Assembly: GCF_032854445.1 (NCBI RefSeq) | Contig: NC_088301.1 | Coordinates: 30,920,402-30,984,401, forward strand | DNA length: 64,000 nucleotides | Origin: Liolophura sinensis | Taxonomy: Eukaryota; Mollusca; Polyplacophora; Chitonida; Chitonidae | Direction: 5' to 3' | In this document: positions 21,382 to 51,181 of the stretch, one piece after another | Layout: the number at the start of each line of letters is the position of its first letter | Position numbering within the stretch: the first letter of the stretch is position 1 | Translations under genes and position numbers: made by a program | Notes under the pieces: model-generated | The model's database searches: none | The model's input: the letters and a program-made list of their open reading frames with translations, nothing else | Told to the model about the DNA's origin: nothing

Positions 21382-21460
<79 letters not shown>

Positions 21461-23890: not shown

Positions 23891-23894
23891 AATA

Positions 23895-26231: not shown

Positions 26232-26372
26232 GGAAGGCCTGGTAGGAACCTGCGGATGGTTATTGGTTTCGCCCGTGCTCTACCAGGTTTCTTCTCATCA
26301 CAATGTTGGCGACAGTCTTGTAAGTGAAATATTCTTTAGTACGGCGTAAAACTCCAACTAAATCAAACAAAC
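26232..26372 (+). mobile_element. Diverged core SINE fragment
   Basis: AACCTGCGGATGGTTATTGG, then GCGACAGTCTTGTAAGTGAA, ATATTCTTTAGTACGGCG and TAAAACTCCAACTAAATC. The order matches the conserved core, with many substitutions. Confidence 0.68.
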
Positions 26373-27376: not shown

Positions 27377-27967
27377 ATCACGCCAAACTAATCAGTCAAG
27401 ACAGTGAGGCGGACAGTACTGATGCCTTAGCTCTTGATGTTGGTCGTTCGGCCACTACCTTGGACACGTACTGTTGGAGAGATGATTACGGGACGGACGA
27501 TGCCTCCACCTCTAGCCGCACAGAGAGCGGCGTGGACTGGGACAGCGGCCTCACCGCCCCACCTTTGGACACGTTGTATCGTTTTCATATCTTTTTTTCG
27601 CACAGCCCAGTCGATAAGCCTTGGGTGGAAGACATAGCAGAAAAGCTGAGGTCCGCGCCACTGGAATATCGGTGTTGCTATAGCAACGACACTGATAAGG
27701 CTGGGATTAATTTCTTACAGAGTCTTCTGTGTGCGGCAATTCTCAGTGAAATAGTTGTGATAGTTCTCACGCCAAGTTACGTGACAGGCACGTGGTTTGA
27801 TTTCCAAGAGACGATGACACACCTCACAAAGTTAAGTTTGCACAAACAACGAATGCTCATTGTCCTTCTAGAAGATTGTGAAATACCTGAGCCTTTGCAG
27901 CACCTTGGCTTCTTGGACGCCCAAGATCCTGACTTTGTCCGAAGTTTGGTTCTGGCCATCCACAGTG
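27377..27967 (+). CDS. Exon 1 of model: acidic leader and TIR domain
   Basis: The acceptor is TTCTTTTTCAG and the donor GTAAGC. The exon opens with two bases of a split codon and ends with one base of the next, so it is symmetric (phase 1-1, 591 bases). Residues 1-66 are acidic and Ser/Thr/Asp-rich, probably disordered. Residues 67-196 are TIR: box 1 is FHIFFSHSPVDKPWV, the BB-loop region is NDTDKAG, and the core strands are IVVIVLTPSYVTGTW and QRMLIVLLED. The BB-loop Pro is Ala, and the residue four after the conserved Trp (W139), usually Glu in catalytic TIRs, is Gln143. TIR identity is firm; the leader's reading is supported only by its open frame. Confidence 0.88.
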
Positions 27968-30900
27968 GTAAGCATTCCTGCTTAGATTTTACTCCAGGGT
28001 TTACATGGCATGCTTACCTTCCCAAAAGCCCCCAAACACTACAACATCGTGACATTTGCTTCTTTATCTCAATAAATTCTTGGTTCACATTTATAGCAAG
28101 AGCTTGCCTATGAGATTAGAAAAGTAATCGTGACCTGATATTATCGTATAACACACAACTGTACATACACTCTTACTTGAACATACTGGGAATCAGACGT
28201 GACTGAGTGGTTAACGTGTCTTTGAATCTGGGACACATGTGGGTTCAAACCCAGCCTTGGGCAGGTAGTTTAATGTAGAAGAGTAAACTCTGGCGTCTGG
28301 GGTTTCTTAAGGACCACTTGGCAGCAACTGTAAGTCAGTGGTTTATCAAGCACATGGCGTAACCACATCTCGTATTAGTGAAACAATGGCTGCAACTGTA
28401 AGTCAGTGCTTTATCAAACACCTGGCGTAACCACATCTCGTATTAGTGAAACAATGGCTGCAACTGTAAGTCAGTGATTTATTAAGCACCTGGCGTAATC
28501 ATTCACGTATTAGTGAAACAATGGCTACAACCGTAAGTCAGTGCTTTATCAAGCATCTGGCGTAACCACATCTCGTATTAGTGAAAAAAATGGCTGCAGC
28601 TATAAGTCAGTGATTTATCAAGCGCCTGGGGTAACCACATCTCGTATTAGTGAAAAGTTGGCTGCAACTGTAAGTCAGTAGTTTATCAAGCACATGGCGT
28701 AACCACATCTCGTATTACTGAAACAATGGCTGCAACTGTAAGTCAGTAGTTTATCGAGCACCTGGCTTAACCACTCTCGTATTAGTGAAACAATGGCTGC
28801 AACTGTAAGTCAGTGATTTATCAAGCACCTGGCGTGAACACTCTCGTATTACTGAAACAATGGCTGCACCTATAAGTCAGTGATTTATCAAGCGCCTGGC
28901 GTAACCACTCTCGTATTAGTGAAACAATGGCTGCAAGTGTAAGTCAGTGCTTTATCAAGCACATGGCGTAACCACATCTCGTATTAGTTAAAAAATGCCT
29001 ACAACTGTAAGTCAGTGGTTTATCAAGCACATGACGTAACCACTCTCGTATTAGTGAAACAATGGCTGCAACTGTAAGTCAGTAGTTTATCAAGCACCCG
29101 GCGTAACCACATCTCGTATTGGTGAAACAATGGCAGCAACTGTAAGTCAGTAGTTTATCGAGCACCTGGCGTAACCACTCTCGTATTAGTGAAACAGTGG
29201 CTGCAACTGTAAGTCAGCGATTTATCAAGCACCTGGCGTGAACACTCTCGTATTACTGAAACAATGGCTGAACCTATAAGTCAGTGATTTATCAAGCATC
29301 TGGCGTAACCACATCTCGTATTAGTTAAACAATGCCTACAACTGTAAGTCAGTGATTTATCAAGCACATGGCGTAACCACATCTCGTATTAGTGAAACAA
29401 TGGCTGCAACTGTAAGTCAGTGATTTATCAAACACCTGGCGTAACCACATCTCGTATTAGTGAAACAATGGCAGCAACTGTAAGTCAGTAGTTTATCAAG
29501 CACCTGGCGTAACCAATCTCGTATTAGTGAAACAGTGGCTGCAACTGTAAGTCAGTGATTTATCAAGCACCTGGCGTGAACACGCTCGTATTAGTGAAAC
29601 AATGGCTGCACCTATAAGTCGGTGATTTATCAAGCATCTGGCGTGAACACTCTCGTATTAGTGAAACAATGGCTGCAACTGTAAGTCAGTAGTTTATCAA
29701 GCACCTGGCGTAACAACTCTCGTATTCGTGAAACAATGGCTGCAACTGTATGTCAGTAGTTTATCAAGCACATGGCGTAACCACATCTCGTATTAGCGAA
29801 ACAATGGCTGCAACTGTAAGTCAGTGATTTATCAAGCACATGGCGTAAACACTCTCGTATTACTGAAAGAATGGCTGCAGCTGTAAGTCAGTGATTTATC
29901 AATTACCTGGCGTAACTACTCTCGCATTAGTGAAACAATTGCTGCAACTGTAGGTGAGTGTTTTATCGAGCACCTGGGGTAACCACTCTCGTAACCATTC
30001 TCACCAATACACCTCCCAATTTACTATTGTTTTACTTTCAAACCTCAAAATTTGCCAGCATATTTTATGACATGATCCTCACAAAATGTCACAAAATCCA
30101 CAGTAATATAGTCCATGTTGTAAGAAAGTGGGGAGGGATACCTGTTTCATGTATTCAATGATAAGACGGTTGATAATGCTTTATTTCAAATAATTTTCAC
30201 TATGAAGCTTAATTTTCAAAAAACTTCTTAAAGGAAATTTAAATTCAGATTCAGATAAACAATGCTTACATTTACGATTGTTTTAAATTGTTTTTGTACA
30301 CAAGATATGATTCTGTCAAGAAAACGGTACAAACCATTCTTCCCAAATTTAGATGATATTGTATTTTGTTAAAACATGATTATAATTAGAATGATGTTTG
30401 AAAAGTAAGTATAGCTTCTTCATGTTGTCTTGAATACACGAGATATTCCATATAGCCCTGGAAACTTTGGCGTAAAACAGTGTGTTGAAACAAGGAATAC
30501 TCAATAGGAGATCGTTCGTTATAATCTGAGATTGCTCCAATTGGCAGCAGTCTGCTTAAAGAAAGAGCTTAGTGATATGGTCAGACATAAAAGATTGTCA
30601 GTAACCCGCAATCCATTTAAAATATTAGGTTAATAAAGTGTGATGCAGAGGACGGTTAATGAAAGCTCGCACAGGTTATACCGCCACCGCTGAATCCCCA
30701 CGCCTACTCTGGCGAGCCTAAAAGACGCTTTACAGCCGATCGAATTTGCTAACAGAAATCGATTCTGCAGAACACCGCTCCTAATGGAATTTGATCCTGC
30801 CTCTGCTTTCGTCGTCTCTACAAAATAACTGAAATATTCCTTGGCCTAAAGCGACCACGTAACCAACCAGTCGGGTATTAACGTCCCATTAACGCATGGA

Positions 30901-33900
30901 TATGTATCGTGTTCTGGTAACGATGACCATTTCCCCTTCATATCGGTCAGTTGTCCACTTTTGATATTTTTCAAATGCTGCAAAAGAGAGCAAATTCGTA
31001 TAAATTGGGAAAGTATCTTTAGACATCAGATTTCGTATTTTTTATCAGAAACCACTCATTATACCTTCTAGTTTTTTTTTAAAGTGGCCCTACTTTAACG
31101 GACCCGACACCAGATAACACTTACGTGAAGGTTGCGATTAAAACCAAGAAACTGTATTGTTAATAAATTCGTCAGACTCACATTTGTCCAGCAACCGGAT
31201 TACTCGCCGGTCTCACGAATAAGTAAAGCCGAAGTCACCTAACAACAAAAGCGTAATGTAAAAGCAGTCGGATATGATCATTCTGTAAAATTCTTTGGTA
31301 TTTAGTTACCTTGTATTTTCGGGGTTGGGGGTGAGGGAGAAATCTAAGTGAGGAAAAATTTAAACGACCCTACCTTTAATCTTTACCATCAGACATGTAT
31401 ATGCCTGCCTCCGTCGGGCAATACATCCGTGGTGACAATAGTGGGCTTCAGCGTTTCTAGCTATTTAGATGCAAGGTTTTACAAACATCTTTAGATCAAT
31501 TTCTTTCCATGAATCATATCAGTACCACATGCATATTTGCCGTGCTCCGCAGATGAACATCTGTGCGCCATATGTGAGTAAGCTCGCCGGTGTTACTTAC
31601 GACTGGTCGCGGTGGTTTACCCATTCCAGGCATTCCCGCTTGTTCTACCCGTAAAAATGATGGACGTCGTATTAAACAATAAAAAATCACTCACTTAGAA
31701 TCCAACCTTCACATTTGGTGAATGGTCATTCTATGCCAGTAGTCACATTGTTTATCAAATTGTTTTTGATATATTAATGGTACATCGATTTTTCATAAAT
31801 GTGTGCGGGTGTGTGTGCGCAATGTGGTTGTGCGGGGGGGGGGGGGGGGGGGGCGCAATGCGGTTATACCTCCACCTGTCCTGCTTTTTACTCTTGTGCT
31901 TTTCCTGCATGTAGAATAACAGCTTTTAGTGGAAAAGGTCTCTGAAGAATTAGCTGTTATGTAGAACAAGTCAATTGATACTTCCTCCTTAGTATTTCCT
32001 AGGCCAAAAAAAAAATAATAAGACGCGATATCAGTTGCCTTAACTTGTTGAAGATAAAGGAATGGTAGTGACTACTGTACCAGTAACATGTTATCAGAGA
32101 ACAACTCCGTATTAAAGCAGATATCATGTAGGTCTAGTTACCATTTTAGTCTGCGTTACCACAAATGTAAACATGATACAGTAACCACATTACCAACATT
32201 CAGTGCTCAGTTTCAGAATGAATTAAAGCTGTTACGTTCCTTACAGCGATACTGGTGGCCAAGCATCAAGGCCCAGTTGAATGTCAAATAAGAAAACACT
32301 AAGAAAATAATGCACTGAACTGATTTGCCATAATTGGAAAAATTAAGGTTTGGAAAACATATGTTTACCAACAGATGCTAACACACATAACGACGAATGG
32401 CTTTACTCAGCTGCCGAAGTACATAGACAGTGGAAAATTCAACACGCTCAACCTACATGTTCAAAATTGTAACGGTATTTACAAAAACAGGCAACAAGGA
32501 GAAAAGGATGACAAATGAAAAATAATCAATTAGGTTTGAACCCCATACTACCAGACATCATATACAATGCGTCTAGTGCTGAAAACCATCACAGCTTCTT
32601 GATCGAGTTAGGCCTTGGTGATCACCGCACCTGGTTAGGTATGTACAATTCAGGTGTGCAGTCACCCCACTCAAGTGTTCCATCCATGGTGTACGGTTTC
32701 GTAGTTACTTCTCTGTGTGGCATCCTAAAGGCCGTTTCTTCCTTACGGGCATGTAAGGTCTAGACCTGAACAGAAATTGGAACTGAGATAATTATTTATC
32801 GGTTGAATTTGGCCTAATAAGAGTAGCATGTTTTGGTCTCGTCATGACTCAAGGTACATGTGTGGATAGACAGTTTTCGTATATTTCACCATTGCTTTGC
32901 ACTTCGTGATAGCACGGGGATATGGGGCGGTGATGTCGGGATTGTTGAGAATTACCCATGATGTCCGTTGATAGCTGTGGAGAGGAGAGAGAGTTGTTCA
33001 TCTCTCGGTTTGAGTCACATCCGACCGACCTATGGGGCAGGTTACCTGCAGCACATGTATCGTAATACACAGTTACCTCCAAAGCCTATGTTAAATGCAC
33101 AGGCTTACATTTCTATTTCTGAAGTAGGGTGGTGTCATTTAATATTTCTAGCGAGAAAATTATAGATCGTAGCTCAAATCCGTTAGTGTTTATTTTTTTT
33201 AATTGGTGTTTTACGCCGTACTCAAGAATATTTCATTTATACGACGGTGGCCAGCATTATGGTGAGTGGAAACCGGGCGGATCCCGGGGGAAACCCACGA
33301 CCACCCACAGGTTGTTGCCAGACCTTCCCACGTACGACCGGAGAGGAAGCCAGCATGAGATGGACTTGAACTCTCAGCGACCACATTAGTGGATACTGCT
33401 GGGTCATCACGCTGCGCTAGCGCACTAACCAAGTGAGCCACGGAGGCCCCAGGAAGTTAGTAGATGGGATGCATAAAAGGAGGGGTGACTTTATTGAAAG
33501 TTGTACCCCAAATTAATAAACGACATTGTAAGAATACAATGTAAAAAGGCCGTATACAAAATACCCGTCAAAACATCTGAGCATCAACATGTGTCAAATA
33601 GAGTGGAGAAATGTGTCAGGGTTTAGAATTAGCGAGGTTACGTTTTTAGTTGGGCAGGGGGGAGAAGGAGAATGCGTCAGCCGTTGTTGGTCCTTGATGG
33701 CGAGAATCTCTCTATCCACTATTTATCACCGTCAACCCTGTCAGTCCTGTCCTAATCTGCCAAATGTATATTGTGGAGCAAGCGTCTGGCTGCCCAGTCC
33801 CGGACAGATTGGCGAGACCATCTTTTACTTTCTACCCGTTCTACGCAGTCCATGGACTGTGGTCGTGCAATCAATAGTTCCTCGACAAAAACTGCTGAGT

Positions 33901-36900
33901 GAAAACCGGGCCACAGTATATGGCTACGTCCTCAGGAACCTTGTTACATATGGGAACCCTATTCCCGACCGCGAATGAACCATGTAACGGCCTAACCATG
34001 AAGCTCTAGTTCCGCCATTGCAGTTTGTTTATGTGATGTTCTGTTTTTCCTTGGCCCAGGTCAACTACCACGGAGCAGTGATTCCATCAGCAGCGACATG
34101 TCGTCAATACTATCTCCAAGAGCCAGTAAGTACTGCATGAACCTTTTTTTCTGGTTGTCACGAAAACGTGTGTTCGGAACTAAAGATTGTATCCGGACTC
34201 ATACAGCCTGGAGTCGAACTGATAACATTCATCTACAAGGTCCCTGCGGGGAATTACTCTTCTACAAGCTTGTATGATAAGACTCAAGATTCTGACTTAT
34301 GCGTGTCTTGACCGGCAAGCACAAAGCGTGATATGGGTTGTGCTATACGTCTTTGGTGAGATTTGGTCTTATCTAATAACAGGAAGGGATAAAAAAAAAA
34401 GAAAGACACGCTATGATCATAGTTTATGATCCTTGTACAATGATAAACATGCGTACGTAGAAAACGTGCGTAAAGGATACAGAATAGTGACGTTTTAATA
34501 TCACGAATTTGAAACTGTACTCTAGAAATCCAGATCTTTCGGTTTTTATTTTCATAATGACTGGATTTTTGTATGAATAACAAATGAACTAAATTATAGA
34601 TAAATAACCAATGTACTCATTCATATTGTAGGAAAAATACCTAAATTAATTACAGCTAATCATATAACTGTTGTAAATTGAAACACATTGATCCACTTTG
34701 CGCTCCTCATGATGACTTCTGCAGTCCTTGTTTCAAGATCGAACATACCTACTAATTAATTCCCCCCAAAGAAGGTCACATACTATTTTTTAAATGATGA
34801 TGCTCGATTATCTCTACGTACCCACAAATAAAAACAAAGGGTAAGCTTACGTTTATGTCATGGTTTGGACAGTCTAAAATCAGTAAAGCCTGATTCGGTC
34901 GAAAGATAAAAACAATAGCTTTTAGCTTGATCAGACACTATATTCAGTTTCATTGAACTTGTTTATATTCAGCTTACCATACTCAAAATAATTAAATTAC
35001 TCATATGATCTCCATCAAAACCGCTTTTTTCCAGGGACATGTAACACCACAAGTTCTATACATCGACACATTGGACATTAACAAAAATAAAAAAAACGTA
35101 ACATAAAAAACAGTACTTTATTCGCAGAGTGAAGGCTGTGGTGCTGTATGGAGTTTTCGCCGTGGTAAATCCCCAGGCTTATTATCCATTATGCCACATT
35201 ATTTGAATATTTATGACGTTATCCAAGACGATGAAACAGCCTGTGGAGTTAAACATTATGCATGAGAAAAAATTCTCTAAATGAAAATTATTCTAAATGC
35301 ACTTACCTTGCAATGGTGTGGACGTCCAGCATATCGATGTGTAGGGCTTGTGGTGTTACGTCTCTCTGGCGTAAGTTCTTGTGTAGTTGGGCCGCACCCA
35401 TGTTTTCTTGCGCTCGTGTAACTATGACCCCATCCCTTTCACCTTGCACATCCCGATTTTGGTATGTGTCTTGTGAGACCGGGTACCAGGCAGTCACGGA
35501 TTGCCCGATGAGCATTGGTAATTACAAAGGCCACTTTCTTTATTGACGCTTGGCTGAGCTTCTGGTAACGTGATGTCACAATCGGTTTTTCCGAGTTCAT
35601 CTGGTTGAGTTTCAGACAATCAACATTCCTAATGTGTCTGGCTGAGCTTCATACAAATGCTGAATGTCGGTTGAGTAATTACACGATCCACTTTCCTAAT
35701 GTGTCTGGCTGAGTTTTCCTAATTTGTCTAGTTGAGCTTAACACAAATGCTGAATGTCGGTTGAGTAATTGCACAGTCTGCTTTCCTAATGTGTCTGGCT
35801 GAGTTTTCCTAATTTGTCTAGTTGAGCTTAACACAAATGCTGAATGTCGGTTGAGTAATTACACGATCCACTTTCCTAATGTGTCTGGCTGAGTTTTCCT
35901 AATTTGTCTAGTTGAGCTTAACACAAATGCTGAATGTCGGTTGAGTAATTGCACAGTCTGCTTTCCTAATGTGTCTGGCTGAGTTTTCCTAATTTGTCTA
36001 GTTGAGCTTAACACAAATGCTGAATGTCGGTTGAGTAATTGCACAGTCTGCTTTCCTAATGTGTCTGGCTGAGTTTTCCTAATTTGTCTAGTTGAGCTTA
36101 ACACAAATGCTGAATGTCGGTTGAGTAATTACACGATCCACTTTCCTAATGTGTCTGGCTGAGTTTTCCTAATTTGTCTAGTTGAGCTTAACACAAATGC
36201 TGAATGTCGGTTGAGTAATTACACAGTCTGCTTTCCTAATGTGTCTGGCTGAGTTTTCCTAATGTGTCTAGTTGAGCTTAACACAAATGCTGAATGTCGA
36301 CTGAGTAATTGCACAGTCTGCTTTCCTAATGTGTGTGGCTGAGTTTTCCTAATTTGTCTAGTTGAGCTTAACACAAATGCTGAATGTCGGTTGAGTAATT
36401 GCACAGTCTGCTTTCCTAATGTGTCTGGCTGAGTTTTCCTAATTTGTCTAGTTGAGCTTAACACAAATGCTGAATGTCGGTTGAGTAATTGCACAGTCTG
36501 CTTTCCTAATGTGTCTGGCTGAGTTTTCCTAATTTGTCTAGTTGAGCTTAACACAAATGCTGAATGTCGGTTGAGTAATTACACGATCCACTTTCCTAAT
36601 GTGTCTGGCTGAGTTTTCCTAATTTGTCTAGTTGAGCTTAACACAAATGCTGAATGTCGGTTGAGTAATTACACAGTCTGCTTTCCTAATGTGTGTGGCT
36701 GAGTTTTCCTAATTTGTCTAGTTGAGCTTAACACAAATGCTGAATGTCGGTTGATTAATTACACAGTCTGCTTTCCTAATGTGTCTGGCTGAGTTTTCCT
36801 AATTTGTCTAGTTGAGCTTAACACAAATGCTGAATGTCGGTTGAGTAATTACACGATCCACTTTCCTAATGTGTCTGGCTGAGTTTTCCTAATTTGTCTA

Positions 36901-39900: not shown

Positions 39901-42900
39901 TGGCTGAGTTTTCTTAATTTGTCTAGTTGAGCTTAACACAAATGCTGAATGTCGGTTGAGTAATTGCACAGTCTGCTTTCCTAATGTGTCTGGCTGAGTT
40001 TTCCTAATTTGTCTAGTTGAGCTTAACACAAATGCTGAATGTCGGTTGAGTAATTACACGATCCACTTTCCTAATGTGTCTGGCTGAGTTTTCCTAATTT
40101 GTCTAGTTGAGCTTAACATAAATGCTGAATGTCGGTTGAGTAATTACACGATCCACTTTCCTAATGTGCCTGGCTGAGTTTTCCTAATTTGTCTAGTTGA
40201 ACTTAACACAAATGTTGAATGTCGGCTGAGTAATTGCACAGTCTGCTTTCCTAATGTGTCTGACTGAGTTTTCTTAATTTGTCTAGTTGAGCTTCACACA
40301 AATGCTGAATGTCGGTTGAGTAATTGCACACTCTGCTTTCCTAATGTGTCTGGCTGAGTTTTCCTAATTTGTCTAGTTGAGCTTAACACAAATGCTGAAT
40401 GTCGGTGGAGTAATTACACAATCCACTTTCCTAATGTGTCTGGCTGAGTTTTCCTAATTTGTCTAGTTGAGCTTAACACAAATGCTGAATGTCGGTGGAG
40501 TAATTACACAATCCACTTTCCTAATGTGTCTGGCTGAGTTTTCCTAATTTGTCTAGTTGAGCTTAACACAAATGCTGAATGTCGGTTGAGTAATTACACG
40601 ATCCACTTTCCTAATGTGTCTGGCTGAGTTTTCCTAATTTGTCTAGTTGAGCTTAACACAAATGCTGAATGTCGGTGGAGTAATTACACAATCCACTTTC
40701 CTAATGTGTCTGGCTGAGTTTTCCTAATTTGTCTAGTTGAGCTTAACACAAATGCTGAATGTCGGTTGAGTAATTACACAGTCTGCTTTCCTAATGTGTC
40801 TGGCTGAGTTTTCCTAATTTGTCTAGTTGAACTTAACACAAATGTTGAATGTCGGCTGAATAATTGCACAGTCTGCTTTCCTAATGTGTCTGGCTGAGTT
40901 TTCTTAATTTGTCTAGTTGAGCTTAACACAAATGCTGAATGTCGACTGAGTAATTGCACAGTCTGCTTTCCTAATGTGTCTGGCTGAGTTTTCCTAATTT
41001 GTCTAGTTGAGCTTAACACAAATGCTGAATGTCGGTTGAGTAATTGCACAGTCTGCTTTCCTAATGTGTCTGGCTGAGTTTTCCTAATTTGTCTAGTTGA
41101 GCTTAACACAAATGTTGAATGTCGGCTGAGTAATTGCACAGTCTGCTTTCCTAATGTGTCTGGCTGAGTTTTCTTAATTTGTCTAGTTGAGCTTAACACA
41201 AATGCTGAATGTCGACTGAGTAATTGCACAGTCTGCTTTCCTAATGTGTCTGGCTGAGTTTTCCTAATGTGTCTAGTTGAGCTTAACACAAATGCTGAAT
41301 GTCGGTTGAGTAATTACACGATCCACTTTCCTAATGTGTCTGGCTGAGTTTTCCTAATTTGTCTAGCTGGGCTTAACACAAATGCTGAATGTGGGTTGAG
41401 TAATTAAACGATCCACTTTCCTAATGTGTGTGGCTGAGCTTCATACAGATGCTAAATGTCGGTTGAGAAATTACACAATCGGGGCCACCGTGGCTCAGTA
41501 AGTTAGCGCGATAGCGCAAAGTAAGGACCCAGGAGTCTCTCACCAATGCGGTCGCTTGAGTTCAAGTCCAGCTCACGGTGGCTTCCTGTCCGGTCGTACT
41601 CGAAAAGGTCTTGCAACAACCTGCAGATGGTCGTGGGTTTCACCCGGTCCGTGCCCAGTTTCCACCCGCCATCGTATAAGTGAAATATTCTTGAGTACGG
41701 CGTAAAACACCAATCAAATAAATAAATAAATTACACAATCCGCTTTCCTAATGTGTCGGGCTGAGTTTCACACAGATGCTTAATGTCAGTGGAGTAATTA
41801 TACAATTCAGTTTCCTAATTTGTCTAGTTGAGCTTAACACAAATGCTGAATGTCGGTTGAGTAATTACACAATCCACTTTCCTAATGTGTCTGGCTGAGT
41901 TTTCCTAATTTGTCTAGTTGAGCTTAACACAAATGCTGAATGTCGGTTGAGTAATTACACAATCCACTTTCCTAATGTGTCTGGCTGAGTTTTCCTAATT
42001 TGTCTAGTTGAGCTTAACACAAATGCTGAATGTCGACTGAGTAATTGCACAGTCTGCTTTCCTAATGTGTCTGGCTGAGTTTCACACAGATTCTGAATGA
42101 CCATTTACAAAGCAAAAATAAAGTGACCTGAAGACAAAGCAAGGAATGTCCGATTGATTTTCGCGCCTACAGACAAAAATTCAAAATACCATAGAGAACT
42201 GGTATGTGATGAAGGAAAATATTGGAGAGAAAGTGGGGTATATGAGATCTCCCATGGTTGAAGTCGAACAAAAACAGGTAAGTTGACTGGGTTTTGAACG
42301 AAACAAACTCTTATCTCCACAGGTTTGGCAAATGGACAACTACTTTGGACAGTGACGGCAAAGATCAAAGGAAGATGTCGAGCGTCATTGGTCTTTGACA
42401 CGGAAGAGGTTCCAACGCCGTTACGTTGCCATGGTATTAACGTGAGTACTCGTCGTTACTAAGTGTAACCTCACTTTCACGCTCTTAGTGTTAATTGATC
42501 CTAATTAACGACAGATCCGAAGGGGAGCGATGGCAACAAAGGTCCTCTCAAGCTGTCTTCTATCAACCAAATCTCAGGAATACTCGTTTTTATCCAAGTG
42601 TCCTATTTCAGTTTCCGGTGGCTCAGCAATGCCTTAGTATCGGAAGTTTGTCGGATGTTACCTTAGATGCGATTCGCCATTTAAACTAAAACGCAAAATC
42701 TCATACACCTTACAGCACATACGTCGCTCTCTATGCTCGTTTTACATCACTGTCAGAACTAGACAAGACTGACCTTTGGGACCTGTGCAACGCACGTTGC
42801 CTTGTTTAGGCTTTGCCTCACCACTGGTGTCCTCAAGCGGAACTATTTAATCAGCATTTATTAATAAAATTGTTTCAGGTGTCCGTTAGAATCATAGTGT

Positions 42901-45900
42901 GCCTACGTCAGGTTAAAAAAAATGCATGTTTATCAAATATAAACAAAGATTGACACAGAATGTTTTTGTTTTCTGACATCACATTCTGCGTCATCACCGT
43001 GACCTCAGTGTCCTGGGCTTTGTTCAAAGTTCTGTGCAAAATTTGTTTGTGGTGGCATTCAGATAAAGCGAACGTTAGAGAGCGGCACTTGTTCTGTTGG
43101 GAGCCTGCCAGCAAATGAATGAAGCAATTTCAAATTTAAAAAAAATAAAACAAAGTAAACGAATCGACAGTAAAAGCATTAATCACTACACACAGAACTT
43201 TGGCGACAAAGGGAGGAGGCTTTTCTTCTGTGGATCGCTATTCAGCAGTCAGGAATTTTAGCATATTACATAATGAAATATACACTTTATGTTTACAGTT
43301 TAAACAATCCTAGTGGAAATTTCTTTCCTGTATTTTTAGTTATTGTGTTTCGAATGTTTTCACCAATAATCAGGCTATCACCAGTAATCAGCTCTGGCTG
43401 TTTCGGCTCCGGTATTAAGTCAGCACTTCATGAAGGTCAGTGGCTTTAACTCCGGACACCCCGGATTAATCCACCCACAAACCTGACAGATTTCATTAAA
43501 GAGAAAATTCTTGAACACGTGGTTAAACACCATTCAGATAAATGAATGAACAAATAAATCACATCCCGCTGCTTGTTTATATGAGAAGACAGGTGCTGTT
43601 AAAGTACGAATGGTCATTCCACTGTTTGTTGTGATGGCTGGCGCACGATGTGGACAAACTAAAGACTCATAACTGTCAATTATTTTTTGTTGTTAATTAT
43701 ATCAGAATAATTTACATATTATTGATTGCATGTTTCTGTCATCAGCAAGTCGGCTATACATCTATCTCCCTGGGTACTATTTCAAACGATTGTAAACAGG
43801 GAAGGGAGTTAACTCTTTACAAGCCTGTCTGTTTATTCTTGACAAAAATGCCCTGGTACAATACTCACACAATAAATGCATCTCGATATGGCTGAGTTTA
43901 ATCCCATGTATTAGACTTGAGAACGTTTTGTGCATTTATCGTGGCGGAACGTTGCCTTCTGTGAGTGCCCTCTGTGAGTGCCTTCTGTGAGTGCCTTCTG
44001 TGAGTGCCTTCTAGTTTCCATATTTTTGAGCCAAAATGAAGTGAGTAAACTTAAGTGGTGTTAATTTTCATGTCAGAACTGCACCGGAAGAAGAGTTGAC
44101 GTGTGAGCCTAAATGAAGGAATTTGGTGACCATAATTTTGTTTGATTCTAAGTGAACACAAAACAGGAGAGAGGCTGCTATCAAGCCAAAGATTTGTGGT
44201 CATTCACATCAAAATCAAAGTCAGAAAATATTGATGGTGTTGTGCGTCTAGAGATATAATTGATTTGTTTGGGGCTTACATCGTACTCAAGAACATTCAC
44301 TTATACGACGGTGGCCAGCTTTATGGTGGAAGTAAACCCGGAAGGGTCAGGGGGAAACCCATGACCTTCCGAAAGCTGCTGAAAGACCTTCCCACGTATG
44401 AACGGAGAGGAAGCCGGCAGGAGCTGGAGTTTAACTCACAGCAATGCAATGGTGAGAGGTTCCTGGGTCATTGTGTTGCCCTAGCACACAAGACACTAGG
44501 CCCGTCTATAGACGACCATAGCCTGGCAGCTATAGAAGGTTAATTGTCGTCGTCCTTTTCTTCCTTAGTTAAGCTACGCTGACTTCGTGGACATTCTACA
44601 CAGTGTGTCAAATTTTGACAACCTGCCCCAGCAGCTCTCCTGGATCTTCACCCTCAAGCCGGTGCTTCTTCTGCTCGGGGTGAGCGGTATCTGGGTCCTG
44701 TCTCTCATACTCGTCATTGTCCTCCTCATTGATGCTCCCAAAGCCAGTAAGACTTAACTTTTCTACATAATATACTTACTTATTTACATTTGATTATTGT
44801 TTAACGCCATATTCCAGAATATTTCACTCACATAATGGCGGCCATTTTTATGAGGGGACCCGAAGGCCCGGAATAAAACATTGACTTTCGGCAAGTTACA
44901 GACTATAAATGCATTACACATAAAAACTTACACTCCTTATTGCTTGGTGGAAAAGAAATGGTGATCAACAAAGGTATAGCATGAATGAATGACTATGGCT
45001 TAACGCCACGTCAAACAAACGTATAGTAATGCGCAAATGAACTCACTGAAACTGTATTATATACTACATGTACGTTGGTATCCGTGCCACCTTCATGGTT
45101 GTTTTTTTTTTCTGATGTATAACCCATGTACCAAGAGGTGCCTCCATGCCGCAGGAGTGTACGAGTCCTCTTGACTTAGGGATAGCGTGGAGGAATGTTC
45201 GCCGCCCACTGATTCATCGATCCCTGGTAGAGCTTTTAAATCCCCTTATTCACATTTAGTGTTCCTTCAAAATAATTAATACATGCATCTAATATTTCAT
45301 CAATTATGTCCAACACTCCACATGGCCTTCGTAGCTTTGAGGTAACTCAATATTCATCTGACAAAGTAGAATGTGTAATGGGCATGCCTAATTATATTAT
45401 AGTTACAGGTATGCCCAAGGTCACTTTTAAAGGAAAATTCATAAAGATAAAAGTCAAATATGCCCACATTAAGGCATCAAATCCATGAATCACAGATTAT
45501 CGGAGAATATCAGATTTCCTGGCCATAAAAAATCACATGCATAAAAACTCGACCTTTCATCTGGTGGCTTTAGACCATGATACATGAAAGAGACGGATAA
45601 ATCAGTGTTGCCACAGGGTGTCCGGGATATCTGTTTGATTCAATCCGCTGTAAGCATTGTCTTTGCCACAACTTATTGGTCTCTGGTTAGTGAGGTCACA
45701 GCTCTGAGGCTTTAAAGTCAGGAAGGTTTGTCAAGCAGGAGGGTTCATGGTGTGTCCCGTGCACCCTAGTTCTCTCCACCTGACAGCCAAAATATAACAC
45801 ACCAAATAAATAAATAAATTGATAAATAAATAAATGTTTGTTTTACAGGCGCTCTTCCCGTCCGTCTGACGGTGTTTCTCTTCCCCCTTCTGTTGGTTGT

Positions 45901-48900
45901 GTTTGGTTACAGTCTGCGCTGGAAGAGAAGAACCAAACAAACAGAGGTATGTCTTGTGTAGTCAAGCCTGGCACAGGAACAAATAGTGAACATGTGTGCA
46001 AAGAGAAATACTTGCATCAGAGACATCTGATATCGCTGTTGAGCAATGTATTTATATACCCCAATTTATCAGACCAAAACTGTGTTACCAAATAGCCATA
46101 TATTACAGCCTGACAAGATGCCGAAATTACACAAGACAATCTTAGTTAGTTAAATCAAAAGAGCTAATACTGCGTATTGATTATTTATTAGTGGGGGAGG
46201 CGGGGTGTCGGGGGAGGCGTAATGACCCAGGAGCCCCTCACCAATGCGGTCGCCGTGAGTTCAAGTCCAGCTCATGCTGGCCTTCACTTCTGGCCGTACG
46301 TGGGAAGGTCTTGCAGCAACCTGCGGATCGTCGCGGGCTTCCCACGGGCCCTGCCCGGTTCCCTCCACCATAATGCTGGCCGCCGTCGTATAAGTGAAAT
46401 ATTCTTGAGTATATTCTTTTTTTCCGCAGTTAAGCTTTTATTTCTATTGTTCATTAGAGAGTTTAAGGCGGGGAGATTTGTCACATAGGGTGTGGAGTTT
46501 TCTCCAACCTCCACCAGGTACATTCACCACCTATAAACCTTAACTTTCGTCCTATAGATGACAAAAAGTTACTCTGCAAAAAAGGGGGTTTTAATGTTCG
46601 TCGGTGTGAGCAGAAATCTACTTAGGCGTCCAACAGTGACATAGCGTACTATAAAATGCAATCCTTACTAATTTGGAAAGATGTGCTTTCCAAATACTAA
46701 TCTGATATTAAGCCACTTAGTATATATGGCATATAAGTGAAATTGCCATGTGTTAGCTGCAGTCAAGTGTATACTCAAATCTGTCATTCATATATGCAAA
46801 CGTTAAGAGCCTCTAAGAGGCTCATCCGTGTACTGCGCATGTCTCACTACACGTCCCATCTCTGCATAATTGTGGATGATTCGTCTACGGCTTGGCGTCA
46901 AGAGGTCAGACAGCAGCGTAGCTAAGGGAGATGGTTAGCACCCATTACAATAACCAAAGGACAAGAAATGTAATATTCTTATGTAAATGTACGAGGTACA
47001 GCTACCATCATATAAATAAATACTGACACGTTATATTTCAGTTTTCCATGCAAATGTTCAACAGTTGCGTTCTGGTGAATCAACAGCTACACGAGACAGG
47101 ACGACCTCTCATTATCACGTCAGCCCGCACTGAGACAGACACGTTCCATGTATCCTTTGTAACCACTGATGTATCGACCCATTAAGAAACTATAATTGAA
47201 TTATACCACCGCAAATAATTAACTCGTCCATTTCTTTGTTTTGATTTACCGTGGCGTTCTTTGCGTCGTACAGTTGTGCTTTTTGGGCCAACGTAGCGTA
47301 TCCCTATAAGACCATATATCGCATGATTGAAACTGAAAGAACTTTTAACGAATAGTTATACCTCGAAAACCGGAAGTAAGAAACATTGTCTCCTCTCTTC
47401 TTCCCATTTATGGATAATTTACTCCTTGGTGTTATAAGGCTCGCTACAAAGCTGAAATTTTATTCCATGGTATATCTAATTGTTATCAAACGGTCAATAG
47501 TTAATCGAAATAGTGTGGACTTAAAGTACTTGTCACTTCCTTTATCCAACACGAGTTCAGTTCAGAGTGTGTGTATGCAAAGCCAAGGTCACCAGTGAAT
47601 CCCTCTTCTGGAGCTGTCCTTACATCAGCCCATGCCCTTGTGGACACTAACTTGATTTAGATATTTGTTTTTGTTTCTCAACCACAGCTAGTCAAACTTT
47701 CCAGTTCTGTTTAATTCCTTAACATCTTTACAAGATATACTTCCTTCATTTCAGCGTTGGAGAATGTATGGTGAGATGTCAACTGTAGCTTATCTCTTTT
47801 AGCCAGTCGCCTATATTCAGTTGTCTGTAAAATCGGTCATACATGCAAAATTGCCCAACGTTAATGAAATGTAACCCCATAAATAATATGTCATGTGTTG
47901 AACATCTCTATTCTTGCAAGGAAAATGCATTTAGAATTCTTTCTCTAATTCATAATGTTTAACTCCATAAGCCTAGTTTCAACAACAAAGAACAAGTGGC
48001 ATGCTGGACAATGAGCACGGAGAGTAATATACTTTACAACAAATCGAGCTACATGCATTTAGAACAAACTGTACGCTGTAATACAGCCTGTCTGGGCGAA
48101 TAGACTACATTGTTTATTACAACATCCATATTGCCGTGAGATCATTACAAGCGGTTTAATCTTAATTAAAATTTCTAAATTAAAAGCTATAATATAAATT
48201 GTATATTACTAAGGGATGTTTGTCACTCACTGATTTAATTTTTTCCTATGAGTCCAAGCAATACTGTTGAAGGCTTGTTCATTGACAAAGAATGTTTTGA
48301 TCAAGGAAGCTGTATTTTTTGTTTGCCAAAACGTATTGTGAATACGTTGAATGCAACAAATTGCAAAGAAATCGCTTATTTGTGGAAAGTATTTGTTCAC
48401 AGAATGAAGTTCAACGTTTCCTACACCAACTGTCAGAAGAACAAACAACGAAAGTTACATCGATGAATGAGACGACATTTTTAGACATAGATTTGTTGCA
48501 ACAGGTAAATTCAAACAAGATATGCCAACACCTCAGATATCTCACAAAGTTTCTTGTGAGCAAAAGAGTCTGTTTCAAAGCGCATGCGCAGTTCTGTGCG
48601 CTTGCTCCTTTTTTATCACTCTCACCGCCAGGAGTTTGACCTGTCGAACCCGTGATTAGGCTTGTTAAGGCTTAGCCTAACCACCGATGTCCTTGCGGGG
48701 AAGTATGATACGAATTTTTCAGTAAACTTGCTTAAGGTTTCCGAATCATGTTGTGTATATTTTAGGTAAAGAGAATGCAAATATATGAATAGACATAAAG
48801 GATGAGTCAGCGCTTTCATTTTTTCTGACATCACTTAATGCTCATCACTGTGACCCAGTGACCTTGGCGTTGTTTCAAGATTTCTTTGCAGAAATTGCCT

Positions 48901-51181
48901 AGTCGTGACAGTGGTGTGAAGCGAACGTAGAGAGCGGTGCATGCGTTGTAAGGAGTAGTTTCATTTGTGATTTTGTCGACATAAGTTCTCTCACGCTTGT
49001 GCTACCCCACTTATTCCAGAACGATAGTCGTCATTGGGGGGAAAATATCTGGCCTCAGGTTCACGAAGTTGTGTTAGACTTAAGGATACATTGAAAGGTA
49101 GTATAAAACAAAGTATGGTTGGAACTAAAATGAAAGAAAATCTGCCAAAAAATAGCTTTTCATTTTTGAGGCATATTTTATATTTCTTGATAACCCATCT
49201 ATTTTATGTGGTCCGAAATAGAATATTGTTTAGAGGAAAACATTAAGCCCTTGTAGCGGAACACGTGACAAATCACCTGATACGTATACTACTTTAAAAG
49301 AGGCGGCCAGAGGCTTATATTATTTAGTTTGTAATAACAATAATGCTTTTAACGAAAGATATTTGATCAGCTCACAAGGAAACTTTTTATCTTCATAAAT
49401 GCCTGCAAAATACACGTCTTAATAATGATTCAGTTTAAGACATACTATATAACAACAATGGCTAATCAATACATGCAACACTTGAATGTCACAGTTCAAC
49501 GCACAGTTTACATATAGTACTGTAATTACGTGTAGTTTTGTCTTAAATGGAATGACTCTTGCTGTTTGCTAGCTTCCTATCTGTCGGCCTTGGGTCTGAC
49601 CGTTTTATCCGTCCGCCTTCTGTCTGTCCCTTTTCTCCGTCTGCCATCTGTTTGTCCTTTCTATCCTCCCGCCTTTTGTCTGTCCCTTCTACCCGTCCGC
49701 CTTCTGTCTGTCCCTTCTACCCGCCCGCCACCTGTCTGTCCCTTCTACCCACCTGCGACCTGTGTGTCCCTTCTGCCCGTCCGATTTTTGGCTATCCCTT
49801 TTATCTGTCTGTCATCTGTTTTTCCGTGCTGTCAGTCCAACTTCTGTCTGTCACTCTTATCTGTCTGCCATCTGTCTGTCTCTCCTGATTGTATAAGCGA
49901 CCAGAGGGATACTGGTGGCAATTTTCGTTTAGTCTTTGACAAAAGACTTCTGTCTGTCCTTTTTGTCCGTCTGCCAACTGTTTATCCCTTTTAACCGTCC
50001 GGCTTCTGGCTGTTCCTTCCACCCGTCCGCCTTTTGTCTGTTCCTTCTACCCGTCCACCTTTTATCTGACCCCGGTACAAGTCTGCCATCTGTGTATCCC
50101 TTCTACCCATCCGCCATTTGTGTGTCCCTTTTACCCGTCCGCCACCTGTCTATCCCTTCTATCCGTCCGATTTTGTCTGTCTCTTCTACCTGTCCGCCTT
50201 TTGTCTGTCTCTTTTATCTGTCTGTCATCTGTTTTTCCCTGCTGCCAGTCCGACTGTCTGTCCTTTCTATTCGCCGGCCTTCTGTCCGTCACTCTTATCC
50301 GTCTGCCATCTGTCTGTCTCTTCTGATTGTATAAGCGACCAGAGGGATACAGGTGGCAATTTTCGTTTAGTCTTTGACAAAAGACTTCTGTCTGTCGCTT
50401 CTACCTCTCCGCCTTTTGTCTGTCCCTTCCACCCGTCTGCCATCTAAATTTTCGTTTAGTCTTTAACAATATCGTGGTTTTGAGAGTGACACCTTACGGG
50501 CGTCCGTGGGAACCGGAGGAACTTAACAAACGTAAACTCTCAATATTTGTATCACGCTGGAACTTTGGTGACCAGGGCCCGGTCTCACTTAACTACGACG
50601 GCAACCAGTACTATAGGCGTTACGTCGCCATGGTAATTGCAAGCTTCGTCAAACTGGGCGTATTAATGGGTTCTAACCGCACGAGGTCTCTGTCTTAATG
50701 GCTCGGAAAAGCGAAAGTATAGATTACATCATAACGTAACATGTGTGGTGAGAAAAGTTGTGAATCTTTGTAACAATTTCCTTAATCTATAAACCTGACC
50801 GCAGTACAAGTGAAATATTCTTCAGTGCAGCGTAAAACATCAATCAAATAAATGAAATATATACCTAATACAGTCTGGTTTTGATCTGCATTTCAGCAAA
50901 CGTTAGCCGAACGCCTGACAACAATGTTAGCGGCAGCGTACAGCCTACAGTTACTGTTCAAACTGATACCAAAAGCAGAGCAAAGCGGCCATGTTGTTCA
51001 CTATCAATGCCTGTGCCACTTCGTGAAAAATTTCATCACGGAATATATCCGAACATCAGGAGAGTGCAAAGACAGTGGGATATCCAGGGAAATGCTGACG
51101 AGGTATATCAACTGTGCAATGCGCAGGTGCAGCACGCGCACGGTCCAAGAGCTATTGACTACCTCGGTAGCAACTGTGTGA
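27377..51181 (+). CDS. TIR domain-TMEM268-like membrane protein (8 exons, 5' end missing)
   Basis: Join 27377-27967, 34060-34125, 42323-42441, 44569-44746, 45849-45946, 47042-47149, 48310-48504, 50897-51181. All junctions keep phase (1,1,0,1,0,0,0), giving 545 residues. Residues 67-196 form a TIR domain, a signalling module of innate immune receptors and adaptors. Residues 198-219 are a Ser-rich linker. Residues from about 220 match the order of features I recall for vertebrate TMEM268 (about 340 aa): an NGQ-L start segment, a YADF-type helix, two membrane segments (about 289-312 and 324-340) followed by a basic RWKRRTK stop, then a C-terminal helix and Cys-x-Cys (489-491). Both ends are predicted cytosolic, so the TIR would face the cytosol. 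TMEM268 function is poorly known; a role in membrane-linked immune signalling is inference. No in-frame ATG precedes the TIR and the first codon is split, so at least one upstream exon is missing. Seven of eight acceptors are good; exon 7's is weak. Confidence 0.72.
28199..28268 (+). mobile_element. tRNA-like SINE head
   Basis: GTGACTGAGTGGTTAACGTG (A-box-like) and GGGTTCAAACCCAGCC (B-box-like) at tRNA-like spacing, but no complete acceptor stem and a SINE-like 3' extension. It lies in intron 1, before the minisatellite. Confidence 0.5.
28319..29991 (+). repeat. Intron 1 minisatellite, 67-69 bp, about 24 units
   Basis: Unit GGCTGCAACTGTAAGTCAGT, then TTTATCAAGCACCTGGCG, TAACCACATCTCGTATTAG and TGAAACAAT. 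Units differ by a few bases and by a two-base CACATCTC/CACTCTC length change. Most carry the hexamer GTAAGT. The array begins about 350 bases after the TIR exon donor. Confidence 0.93.
29992..33189. other. Intron 1 sequence, mostly unassigned
   Basis: Holds a SINE-like fragment at about 31560-31690 (GGTGGTTTACCCATTCCAGG, then ATGGACGTCGTATTAAACAA) and a run of 20 G at 31834-31853. No exon recognised. Confidence 0.45.
31834..31853 (+). repeat. Poly-G run of 20
   Basis: Uninterrupted G after a GT-rich stretch; potential quadruplex on the sense strand of the intron, and a likely site of length variation or sequencing error. Confidence 0.9.
33190..33450 (-). mobile_element. Full-length core SINE, minus strand
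   Basis: A poly(A)-like tail (T run at left), GGTGTTTTACGCCGTACTC, CCAGCATTATGGTGAGTGG, CGGAGAGGAAGCCAGCATG and a complete tRNA-like head ending AGTGAGCCACGGAGGCCCC. It lies in intron 1, about 600 bases before exon 2. Confidence 0.9.
34060..34125 (+). CDS. Exon 2: Ser-rich linker
   Basis: The acceptor is TTTTTCCTTGGCCCAG and the donor GTAAGT, both strong. Read in the phase left by the TIR exon, the 66 bases give an open Gly-Gln-Leu-Pro-Arg then Ser/Asp-rich stretch of 22 codons. The exon is symmetric (1-1), so it can be skipped without shifting the frame. It probably acts as a flexible, possibly phosphorylated, spacer between the TIR and the membrane part. Confidence 0.68.
35030..35365. mobile_element. 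Foldback family member, shortened
   Basis: 35030-35080 (ATGTAACACCACAAGTTCTA, ACATTGGAC) is in one orientation and 35210-35365 (TTTATGACGTTATCCAAG, TGCACTTACCTTGCAATGG, GACGTCCAGCATATCGATG) in the other, as in the element at 21768-22626 but with much of the arms lost. Confidence 0.55.
37466..37712 (+). mobile_element. Full-length core SINE inside the satellite (copy 1)
   Basis: 247 bases with tRNA-like head (A box TGGCTCAGTAAGTTAGCG, B box GAGTTCAAGTCCAGCTC), core GGTCGTGGGTTTCACCCGG, GTATAAGTGAAATATTCTTG and tail CAATCAAATAAATAAAT. It is flanked by the 13 bp target duplication AAATTACACAATC (37453-37465 and 37713-37725), which is satellite sequence. Confidence 0.95.
41481..41727 (+). mobile_element. 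Full-length core SINE inside the satellite (copy 2)
   Basis: Same length and, as far as I can read, same sequence as the copy at 37466, with the same 13 bp duplication (41468-41480 and 41728-41740) and the same flanking satellite variants. It therefore arose by duplication of the locus, not by a second insertion. Confidence 0.95.
42323..42441 (+). CDS. Exon 3: start of TMEM268-like region
   Basis: The acceptor is CTTATCTCCACAG and the donor GTGAGT. In the phase given by exon 2 it reads SLANGQLLWTVTAKI and ends PTPLRCHGIN, open throughout; another frame has a TGA in mid-exon. The NGQ-L, SLVFD and final GI motifs line up with the N-terminal part of vertebrate TMEM268 as I recall it. It lies 225 bases after the 90 bp satellite ends. 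Confidence 0.74.
42776..43105 (+). repeat. Dispersed repeat in intron 3 (partner at 48639-48957)
   Basis: Shares in order GACCTGT, CTTGTTTAGGCTTTGCCTC, GGTGTCC, TTTTCTGACATCAC, CATCACCGTGACC, GTTC-AAGTTCT and GCGAACGTTAGAGAGCGG with the partner on the same strand. No coding capacity. Confidence 0.65.
43435..43560 (+). mobile_element. SINE-like 3' fragment
   Basis: GGTCAGTGGCTTTAACTCCGG and CACCCCGG, then AAATTCTTGAACACGTGG, TTAAACACCATTCAGATAAA. Same family as 10797-11189. Confidence 0.5.
43957..44012 (+). repeat. 13 bp tandem repeat
   Basis: About four and a half units of TGCCTTCTGTGAG, one with a C for T change. Confidence 0.9.
44260..44491 (-). mobile_element. Core SINE, minus strand, in intron 3
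   Basis: CGTACTCAAGAACATTCACT, ACGACGGTGGCCAGCTTTA, GGAAACCCATGACCTTCCG, ACGGAGAGGAAGCCGGCAG and a degraded tRNA-like head. It ends 77 bases before the acceptor of exon 4. Confidence 0.85.
44569..44746 (+). CDS. Exon 4: TMEM268-like helix and first membrane segment
   Basis: The acceptor has a long pyrimidine tract (CCTTTTCTTCCTTAG) and the donor is GTAAGA. Phase 0 gives LSYADFVDILHSV, then a hydrophobic stretch from LKPVLLLLG to VIVLLID (model residues about 289-312), which is the first membrane segment. It ends Asp-Ala-Pro-Lys-Ala, a short loop before the second segment. The YADF helix matches the family's position just before the membrane pair. Confidence 0.82.
44795..44877 (-). mobile_element. 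Short diverged SINE tail, minus strand
   Basis: GTTTAACGCCATATTCCAG, AATATTTCACTCACATAATGG and CGGCCATTTTTATGAGG. The order matches the tail-core boundary of the SINEs, with lower identity. Confidence 0.55.
45849..45946 (+). CDS. Exon 5: second membrane segment and basic stop
   Basis: The acceptor is TTTGTTTTACAG and the donor GTATGT. With the one base carried over it reads SALPVRLTVFLFPLLLVVFG, then YSLRWKRRTKQTE. The hydrophobic run is the second membrane segment. The basic cluster after it indicates the cytosolic side, as in a hairpin membrane topology with both termini in the cytosol. Confidence 0.8.
46199..46414 (+). mobile_element. Core SINE, plus strand, in intron 5
   Basis: The head is partly lost. 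B box GAGTTCAAGTCCAGCTC, then GGCCGTACGTGGGAAGGTC, ACCATAATGCTGGCCGCC, GTATAAGTGAAATATTCTTG. The tail is cut after GAGTA. Confidence 0.88.
47042..47149 (+). CDS. Exon 6: cytosolic segment after the membrane hairpin
   Basis: The acceptor is TTATATTTCAG. Phase 0 gives FSMQMFNSCVLVNQQLHETG and then a Thr-rich stretch ending TETDTFH. The N-x-x-L-x-x-x-x-L-x-x-x-G pattern fits the region that follows the second membrane segment in TMEM268. The chosen donor (CAT/GTATCC) is mediocre. GTAACC eight bases on or GTATCG seventeen bases on would be alternatives, followed by a TAA at 47182, so the 3' boundary is uncertain by a few codons. Confidence 0.68.
47797..48135 (-). mobile_element. Single foldback arm in intron 6
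   Basis: TCTCTTTTAGCCAGTCGCCT, ATATTCAGTTGTCTGTAAAA, GTTGAACATCTC, CTTGCAAGGAAAATGCATT and CATAAGCCTAGTTTC match the left arm of the element at 21768 in the same orientation. No opposite arm nearby. Confidence 0.62.
48310..48504 (+). CDS. Exon 7: TMEM268-like cytosolic helix region
   Basis: The frame reads LYFLFAKTYCEYVECNKLQ, then EVQRFLHQLSEEQT, ending DIDLLQQ at a GTAAAT donor. Both ends are phase 0 and fit exons 6 and 8. The aromatic-rich start with a following Cys matches the L-W-F-x-Y-F...C block I recall in vertebrate TMEM268. The acceptor (GATCAAGGAAG) has almost no pyrimidine tract, so the exact start, or even inclusion of this exon, is less certain than for the others. A stop lies in frame at 48298. 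Confidence 0.5.
48639..48957 (+). repeat. Dispersed repeat in intron 7 (partner at 42776-43105)
   Basis: GACCTGTCGAACC, GGCTTAGCCTAACCACCGATG, TTTTCTGACATCAC, CATCACTGTGACC, GCGAACGTAGAGAGCGGTG. It is 134 bases after the exon 7 donor. Confidence 0.65.
49575..50445 (+). repeat. Pyrimidine-rich minisatellite in intron 7
   Basis: Degenerate units of about 28 bp (CCGTCCGCCTTCTGTCTGTC, CCTTCTAC). A non-repeat block starting GATTGTATAAGCGACCAGAG occurs at 49887 and again at 50325, so a segment of about 438 bp was duplicated in tandem. Open frames on both strands here are low-complexity by-products. Confidence 0.9.
50577..50659. mobile_element. Possible small palindromic MITE-like element
   Basis: GCCCGGTCTCAC at the left and GTCAAACTGGGC at the right are inverted with 9 of 12 matches. 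The inside has CGTTACGTCGCCATGG. 83 bp, no coding capacity. Confidence 0.35.
50797..50852 (+). mobile_element. SINE tail fragment before last exon
   Basis: GTACAAGTGAAATATTCTTC, AGTGCAGCGTAAAACATC, AATCAAATAAATGAA. It is 44 bases upstream of the exon 8 start. Confidence 0.75.
50897..51181 (+). CDS. Exon 8: C-terminal exon with Cys-x-Cys helix and stop
   Basis: The acceptor is GATCTGCATTTCAG. Phase 0 gives QTLAERLTTMLAAAYSLQLL, then FKLIPKAEQSG, then HYQCLCHFVKNFITEYI, and stops at TGA 51179-51181. The block order AE-x5-LAA-x-Y-x-LLF-x-x-x-P-x-A...CxC-x-FI-x-x-YI agrees closely with the C-terminus of vertebrate TMEM268 as I recall it, and decides the frame over a longer overlapping open frame (50881-51252). 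About 40 residues beyond the Cys motif have no counterpart I recognise. Confidence 0.78.
   Translation, partial: QTLAERLTTMLAAAYSLQLLFKLIPKAEQSGHVVHYQCLCHFVKNFITEYIRTSGECKDSGISREMLTRYINCAMRRCSTRTVQELLTTSVATV

Follow-up and report, generated by a model that had tools for sequence, protein, structure and literature searches.

TIR domains in animals are found mostly in receptors with ectodomains or in soluble adaptors, and human TMEM268 is not known to contain one. In molluscs, lineage-specific combinations of the TIR domain with other domains are a known trend, including bivalve TIR-DC and oyster ARM-TIR, IG-TIR, TIR-TPR and EGF-TIR, and no TIR-TMEM268 combination is among those named in the accessible portions of the two reports concerned (PMC12521104; PMC4346834). 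Oyster TIR-STING (PDB 6wt6, 6wt7) is likewise a mollusc TIR fused to another immune module, its partner being STING, whereas the partner in the chiton gene described here is a TMEM268-like hairpin. Human TMEM268 has transmembrane (TM) segments at residues 104-126 and 130-152 and binds ITGB4 (PMC6748091), and mouse TMEM268 binds the integrin subunit CD11b and slows the loss of CD11b via endosomes and lysosomes; loss of TMEM268 in mice worsens sepsis, and the knockouts clear bacteria poorly (PMC11169502). The sequence-only reading of the locus had proposed a possibly unrecorded architecture, and no report of a TIR domain combined with DUF4481, TMEM268 or C9orf91 was found in the literature searched, a scope outside which many journals lie; DUF4481 by itself is mentioned there in a single paper.

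The stretch analyzed (G000:C7:30920402-30984401, hereafter the window) is 64,000 nucleotides of DNA from the chiton Liolophura sinensis, and the assembly searched comprises 609,464,459 bases. Eight exons on the + strand of the window (27377-27967, 34060-34125, 42323-42441, 44569-44746, 45849-45946, 47042-47149, 48310-48504 and 50897-51181) had initially been joined into one frame of 545 residues. This chain is readable, with all introns bounded by GT and AG, but it probably misplaces one border, and it lacks three exons. The revised model of the window gene (W) contains 11 exons encoding 554 residues without a stop or frameshift; it adds 18388-18397, 20767-20838 and 47735-47770 and moves an exon start from 48310 to 48403. 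Splice sites were ranked with hand-set weights among the 1954 AG and 2568 GT sites of the + strand in 15000-52000, and all ranks given here are by these weights. Sixteen of the 20 splice sites of the 11-exon model are within the top 4.4%, and the four outside the top 5% are the acceptors at 47042, 47735 and 48403 and the donor at 47149.

The TIR exon (27377-27967, + strand, as for all exons of W; phase 1-1) has an acceptor ranked 7th of 1954 and a donor ranked 13th of 2568. Because it opens at an acceptor and no ATG precedes the TIR domain, exons must be missing upstream of it. A candidate first coding exon at 18388-18397 (ATG AGC GAA G, encoding MSE, phase 1 out) has an in-frame stop upstream at 18313 and the donor GTAAGT, ranked second of 2568, and is in frame with a candidate second exon at 20767-20838 (phase 1-1; acceptor 6th of 1954, donor 112th of 2568); no other open 1-1 exon of 30-300 nt in 18400-27300 has an acceptor and a donor that both equal or exceed those of this second exon. 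Since counterparts of these two exons are absent from the models of the paralogous genes A and B described below, in which the ATG lies inside the TIR exon, the 5′ exons of W are held tentative. Downstream, the acceptor of the Ser-rich linker exon (34060-34125, phase 1-1) ranks first of 1954. No other open 1-1 exon of 30-150 nt in the interval from the TIR exon to the following 119-nt exon equals or exceeds the linker at both sites, and A and B have a 45-nt 1-1 linker at this place.

The TMEM268-like part starts with the “NG” exon (42323-42441), which is exactly 119 nt long with phase 1-0 in W, A and B. Hydropathy places the first half of a two-TM hairpin in 44569-44746 (phase 0-1) and the second half in 45849-45946 (phase 1-0), the latter together with a flank that is basic by K/R counts and presumably cytosolic. 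The hairpin exons of W total 276 nt, vs. single exons of 282 nt in A and 279 nt in B, and the W hairpin carries an extra phase-1 intron compared with both. The exon at 47042-47149 (phase 0-0; acceptor 344th of 1954) has a weak donor, GTATCC (774th of 2568), and its place and phase are those of the 99-nt exons of A and B; extending this exon, the eighth of the model, to 47158 or 47170 gave no improvement. A micro-exon overlooked in the initial chain, IYFLHFSVGECM, lies at 47735-47770 (36 nt, phase 0-0; donor 18th of 2568, acceptor 267th of 1954), and the 36-nt 0-0 exons of the paralogues encode LALVYYNTEPCK in A and IAVVYYNTQRCK in B. All human comparisons used an uncurated TMEM268 sequence, in which the counterpart of the micro-exon peptide is presumably LWFVYFDLENCV. 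No other open 36-nt 0-0 exon of the window's + strand equals or exceeds this micro-exon at both splice sites, and this one lies inside the expected intron; 2 of 31,328 window 12-mers, the exon itself counted, score as well against the uncurated human sequence, and 62 of 31,328 score as well against A and B. The next exon, 48403-48504 (phase 0-0; acceptor ...ttgttcacag, score 0.9, rank 531 of 1954), replaces 48310-48504, and its start shares an alignment column with that of exon 7 in A and B. The acceptor at 48310 was dropped because it is a poor site (score -3.1, rank 1282 of 1954) and the model that uses it lacks the 36-nt exon. The last exon, 50897-51181 (acceptor 75th of 1954), contains Cys-Leu-Cys and the stop, and once W is corrected and its tail trimmed, the C-x-C column of the alignment is shared with A, B and the uncurated human TMEM268.

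Relatives of W were found in the same genome. Searching with the W TIR exon gave 38 matches besides itself at E <= 1; the six strongest all lie on contig C10 (4.7e-12 to 4.0e-6), and the next has 0.0017. Four of these six nearest TIR relatives are followed by hairpin exons on the same strand, and they represent two diverged lineages: genes A and B, and their near-identical duplicates A′ and B′, which are 97-100% identical to A and B, respectively, over the five exons compared. Genes A (C10, 8.98 Mb) and B (C10, 21.71 Mb) are complete chains with GT-AG introns throughout, composed of a TIR exon, a 45-nt 1-1 linker, a 119-nt 1-0 exon, a hairpin exon of 282 or 279 nt, a 99-nt exon, a 36-nt exon, an exon of 117 or 54 nt, and a last exon with CLCQL. 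The order and phases common to W, A and B are therefore those of a TIR exon, a short 1-1 linker, a 119-nt 1-0 exon, the hairpin, an exon of 99-108 nt, and then two exons, the first of 36 nt, before a last exon with Cys-Leu-Cys. Differences between A and B at codon positions 1, 2 and 3 are 0.37, 0.26 and 0.66 in the TIR exon and 0.48, 0.33 and 0.67 in the TM part, and the third-position excess points to selection on the protein, as expected of conserved coding sequence. In the reverse search with the TIR exon of B, the other five C10 exons came first after B itself, and the W TIR was 44th of 90 matches (5.0e-8), behind many TIRs in long frames that are probably TLRs. The membrane part of W is not significantly similar to that of either paralogue by sequence (vs. 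A, z 1.7, with 124 of 2000 shuffles reaching the score; vs. B, z -0.7, with 1561 of 2000). An A+B profile scored five W models, all lacking the micro-exon, at -2.0 to 0.2 bits, and the unadjusted p-values of W against A+B by exon were 0.02 for the 119-nt exon, 0.29 for the hairpin, 0.21 for the next exon and 0.03 for the last. Consequently, the tie of W to the C10 genes rests mainly on the TIR domain and on the order, lengths and phases of the exons.

Several further C10 loci resemble parts of these genes. In genes C and D (L007, L008, L011 and L012; C10:9.09-9.15 Mb), a TIR exon of the same type ends at a phase-1 donor, and a coiled-coil-like exon comes after it. Searches of about 19 kb downstream with profiles built for the 119-nt, hairpin, next and last exons matched nothing better than E 0.46, and different profiles applied to the nearer 9 kb gave one weak match (E 0.025) that is absent from the about-19-kb search. 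C and D were therefore not counted as family members, and a Death domain suspected by eye downstream of D had no Pfam match at E <= 0.1. A lone copy of the B-type last exon, 75% identical, is located on the minus strand at G000:C10:22148939-22149109 (L013); within about 19 kb upstream of it no TIR, 119-nt or hairpin exon was found, the other matches there having E of 0.19 or more. Extra copies of the linker exon appear, by eye, to lie in tandem in gene B (L002, about 5490-5705), and the linker of B′ also matches a second place at 82%.

The TIR domain of W, as had been read from the sequence, is firmly supported by PF13676 (TIR_2; 47.6 bits, 2.9e-12, cut-off 28), and A and B score 56.5 bits each. 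PDB matches of the W TIR exon include TLRs, TIRAP and MyD88. A profile built from five TIR exons of this genome had TLR6 (2.6e-19) and TLR1 (4.7e-19) as its best PDB matches, with TIR-STING at 1.5e-14 and MyD88 from 6.2e-14; NADase TIRs ranked below the TLR and MyD88 types in this profile search, where TIR-STING was tenth; by fold, TIR-STING came 19th-20th. The structure predicted for the W TIR exon from the five-exon alignment has a mean pLDDT of 58.4, with residues 61-196 at 52-85 per ten-residue block, and a Foldseek search with this low-confidence model placed MyD88 first (5.7e-7, TMt 0.71), with Toll-related receptor, TLR and TIR-STING TIRs also matched. The TIRs of TLRs and MyD88 are thus the closest to that of W in both sequence and fold, and on these profile and structure matches the W TIR is TLR/MyD88-like. 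A hydrophobic stretch at residues 136-165 lies inside the TIR domain and is interpreted as its core. Unlike TLRs, the W model has no leucine-rich ectodomain, since a Pfam scan of the 554 residues found no domain above cut-off beside the TIR; unlike MyD88, it has no Death domain, for which no Pfam match at E <= 10 was found in the models of W, A or B. Matches to LiaF-TM, DUF2986, GGR_cat, DuoxA, PgaPase_1, Cpta_toxin and TMEM100 were below their own cut-offs and were judged to be chance.

The explanation of the locus as a whole that we favor, with moderate confidence, is one gene encoding a hairpin-anchored cytosolic TIR with a TMEM268-like module, belonging to a small paralogous family in the chiton. 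That W yields a single transcript, and the topology, partners and signaling of its product, are what we infer from the gene model. In the product, a TIR domain at the cytosolic N terminus would be connected by a short linker to the TMEM268-like module, in which an N-terminal segment precedes a tight two-TM hairpin and the C-terminal region, with Cys-Leu-Cys, is again cytosolic. The notion of a membrane-anchored, cytosol-facing TIR protein agrees with the model insofar as a TIR domain and two TM segments are present and no receptor ectodomain is; the facing is deduced from basic residues that, by K/R counts, come after the second membrane segment of W, A and B alike, and because of which both termini should face the cytosol. 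The hairpin would most likely fix a scaffold-like TIR of the TLR/MyD88 type on the cytosolic face of the ER, endosomal or plasma membrane, where the anchored TIR would meet the TIRs of TLRs or MyD88, and the TMEM268-like part would hold membrane partners, by analogy with mouse TMEM268 and CD11b. A family of several genes in which a TMEM268-like hairpin holds a TIR at the membrane would add a new domain combination to a mollusc class that has been little sampled. The knockout phenotype of TMEM268 provides the partner module with an immune link of its own (PMC11169502), and the architecture points to a connection of TMEM268 with Toll signaling that can be tested. A bolder extension, which we consider improbable, is that TIR-TMEM268 proteins constitute an old and distinct class of innate immune adaptor, in which a TMEM268-type hairpin with integrins or phagocytic receptors as its clients carries its own TIR and so ties adhesion or phagocytosis directly to Toll signaling, vertebrate TMEM268, the protector of CD11b in mouse phagocytes, being the TIR-less relative.

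The same architecture could instead act as a brake or decoy, with a TIR held at the membrane that engages the TIRs of MyD88 or TLRs and passes no signal; we regard this as possible, on the doubtful side. The W model has no Death or kinase domain by Pfam, and it has NDTDKAG at the loop where B has RDFLPG, a loop that we take to be the BB loop of the TIR domain. However, A also departs from the proline at this loop (RDFIAG).

For the membrane part of the hairpin-anchored protein, the kinship to TMEM268 requires separate consideration. Two membrane segments, by hydropathy, and a C-terminal Cys-Leu-Cys are present in W, as had been proposed, but the claim of a complete DUF4481 domain found no confirmation: PF14800 (cut-off 25 bits) has no match at E <= 10 in W, in either model, or in A or B. 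When PF14800 was applied to the genome exon by exon, three candidates were scored and no match was found, the control being likewise unmatched. The profile search of the conceptual protein thus had a divided outcome, the TIR profile being matched and the DUF4481/TMEM268 profile unmatched. A PDB search with an alignment of the membrane part (initial W model) returned three weak matches, the best to sodium channel beta-2 (E 0.01), which were judged to be chance. The membrane part is accordingly termed TMEM268-like and stands outside DUF4481 as filed by Pfam.

The uncurated human TMEM268 sequence agrees in length, at residue 71 and in its TM segments with the published description, in which a variant changing I71 to IQ is printed (PMC6748091). 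In an alignment to the uncurated human letters, this I71/IQ position is at most one column away from the phase-0 junction at the 3′ end of the 119-nt exon, the human intron and its phase being deduced from the variant. A profile of W (tail-trimmed), A and B scored 12.2 bits against residues 38-342 of the uncurated human sequence, a score reached by none of 2000 block shuffles (best 8.6). With the initial W model, the profile scored 7.8 bits against the human sequence (reached by none of 1000 block or 1000 full shuffles), and another alignment with that model scored 10.1 bits (best shuffle 5.8); two interim W models without the micro-exon gave 8.4 bits, with 1 of 1000 shuffles above, and 7.2 bits, and an A+B profile without W gave 5.9 bits, a value that 2 of 1000 block shuffles equaled or exceeded. 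In pairwise comparisons, the score of the human sequence was reached by 36 of 2000 shuffles against W, 1 of 2000 against A and 14 of 2000 against B. By exon, the human sequence against W gave p 0.0005 in the 119-nt and last exons, 0.50 in the hairpin and 0.83 in the next exon, and against A+B it gave 0.87 (119-nt), 0.056 (hairpin), 0.054 (next) and 0.0025 (last). The C-x-C motifs of W, A, B and the uncurated human sequence are aligned when the corrected, trimmed W is used, and that of W falls elsewhere with the initial model.

Vertebrate TMEM268, as represented by the uncurated human sequence, resembles the chiton proteins in its two closely spaced TM segments and apparently also in a C-terminal C-x-C, a junction within one residue of I71 and a collinear alignment; the window protein differs in its longer C-terminal tail, and the chiton proteins differ in being unrecognized by PF14800. 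From the hairpin, the C-x-C, the intron position and the 12.2 bits to the uncurated human sequence, we infer a kinship to TMEM268. That the fusion is real and its membrane part belongs to a different two-TM hairpin family, unrelated to TMEM268, is rather unlikely, since the hairpin, C-x-C and intron position appear to coincide and no shuffle of 2000 reached the score of the corrected, trimmed alignment; in favor of such a family are the failure of PF14800 in all three genes, the modest and uneven scores of a comparison with an uncurated human sequence, and the displaced C-x-C of W under the untrimmed initial model.

Another reading accepts the TMEM268-like module and makes the TIR exon an occasional cassette, the main product being a TIR-less TMEM268-like protein. 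Exons 2, 3 and 4 of W are all phase 1-1, and all six of the skips tried leave the frame open, so that an in-frame TIR-less isoform is possible. In the models of A and B, however, the start codon lies inside the TIR exon, and skipping the TIR there would need another start. The hairpin exons found in the genome at E < 1e-6 all lie downstream of a TIR exon, and none without a TIR was seen among the genome matches examined. A predominantly TIR-less product is therefore judged unlikely.

It is also conceivable that the model joins, on paper alone, a TIR gene to an unrelated two-TM gene lying downstream of it. Introns of 6.1 and 8.2 kb flank the linker, and the TM part of W lacks significant sequence similarity to A or B, as would suit this view. 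Against it, A and B repeat the order, strand and phases, linker exon included; moreover, the 119-nt exon opens in phase 1 at an acceptor and so requires an upstream exon, and the linker is the sole exon with such strong sites there. Separate genes are thus highly improbable given the repeated architecture, and the fused TIR-TMEM268-like gene is, on the genomic evidence, very probably real. Since sister genes in the same genome share the build, TIR-TMEM268-like proteins probably form a real and apparently undescribed family rather than two neighboring genes misread. Decay of W as a paralogue of the C10 genes, which its four weak splice sites around 47042-48403 and its sequence distance from A and B might suggest, is very unlikely in view of the absence of any stop or frameshift in 11 exons and the 16 of 20 splice sites in the top 4.4%.

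The introns of W are rich in repeats. A 67-bp tandem array of about 25 copies (28319-29993) is located in the intron after the TIR exon, and tandem arrays with a 90-bp unit (35626-42082) occupy most of the intron between the linker and the 119-nt exon; since the 90-bp period is a multiple of three, long minus-strand open frames arise in 35626-42082 that are probably spurious. A 28-bp minisatellite (49577-50324), Pro/Ser/Cys-rich when translated, lies upstream of the last exon. The sequence GTTACGTyGCCATGGTA occurs both inside the 119-nt exon (42420-42436) and at 50619-50635, where it is surrounded by an open frame of 106 amino acids that has no Pfam match. Elsewhere in the window, a SCAN-domain match (PF02023, 3.6e-7) on the minus strand at 5308-6388 adjoins a frame of 225 amino acids that has no match in Pfam, and the region resembles a gag fragment of a retroelement. 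Finally, a dispersed repeat with a translation like LKNISLIRRRPALWWEETGQSP was recognized by eye at about 21470-21700, 33210-33450, 44270-44500 and 46220-46430 of the window and at several places on C10, and it is probably a SINE-like element.
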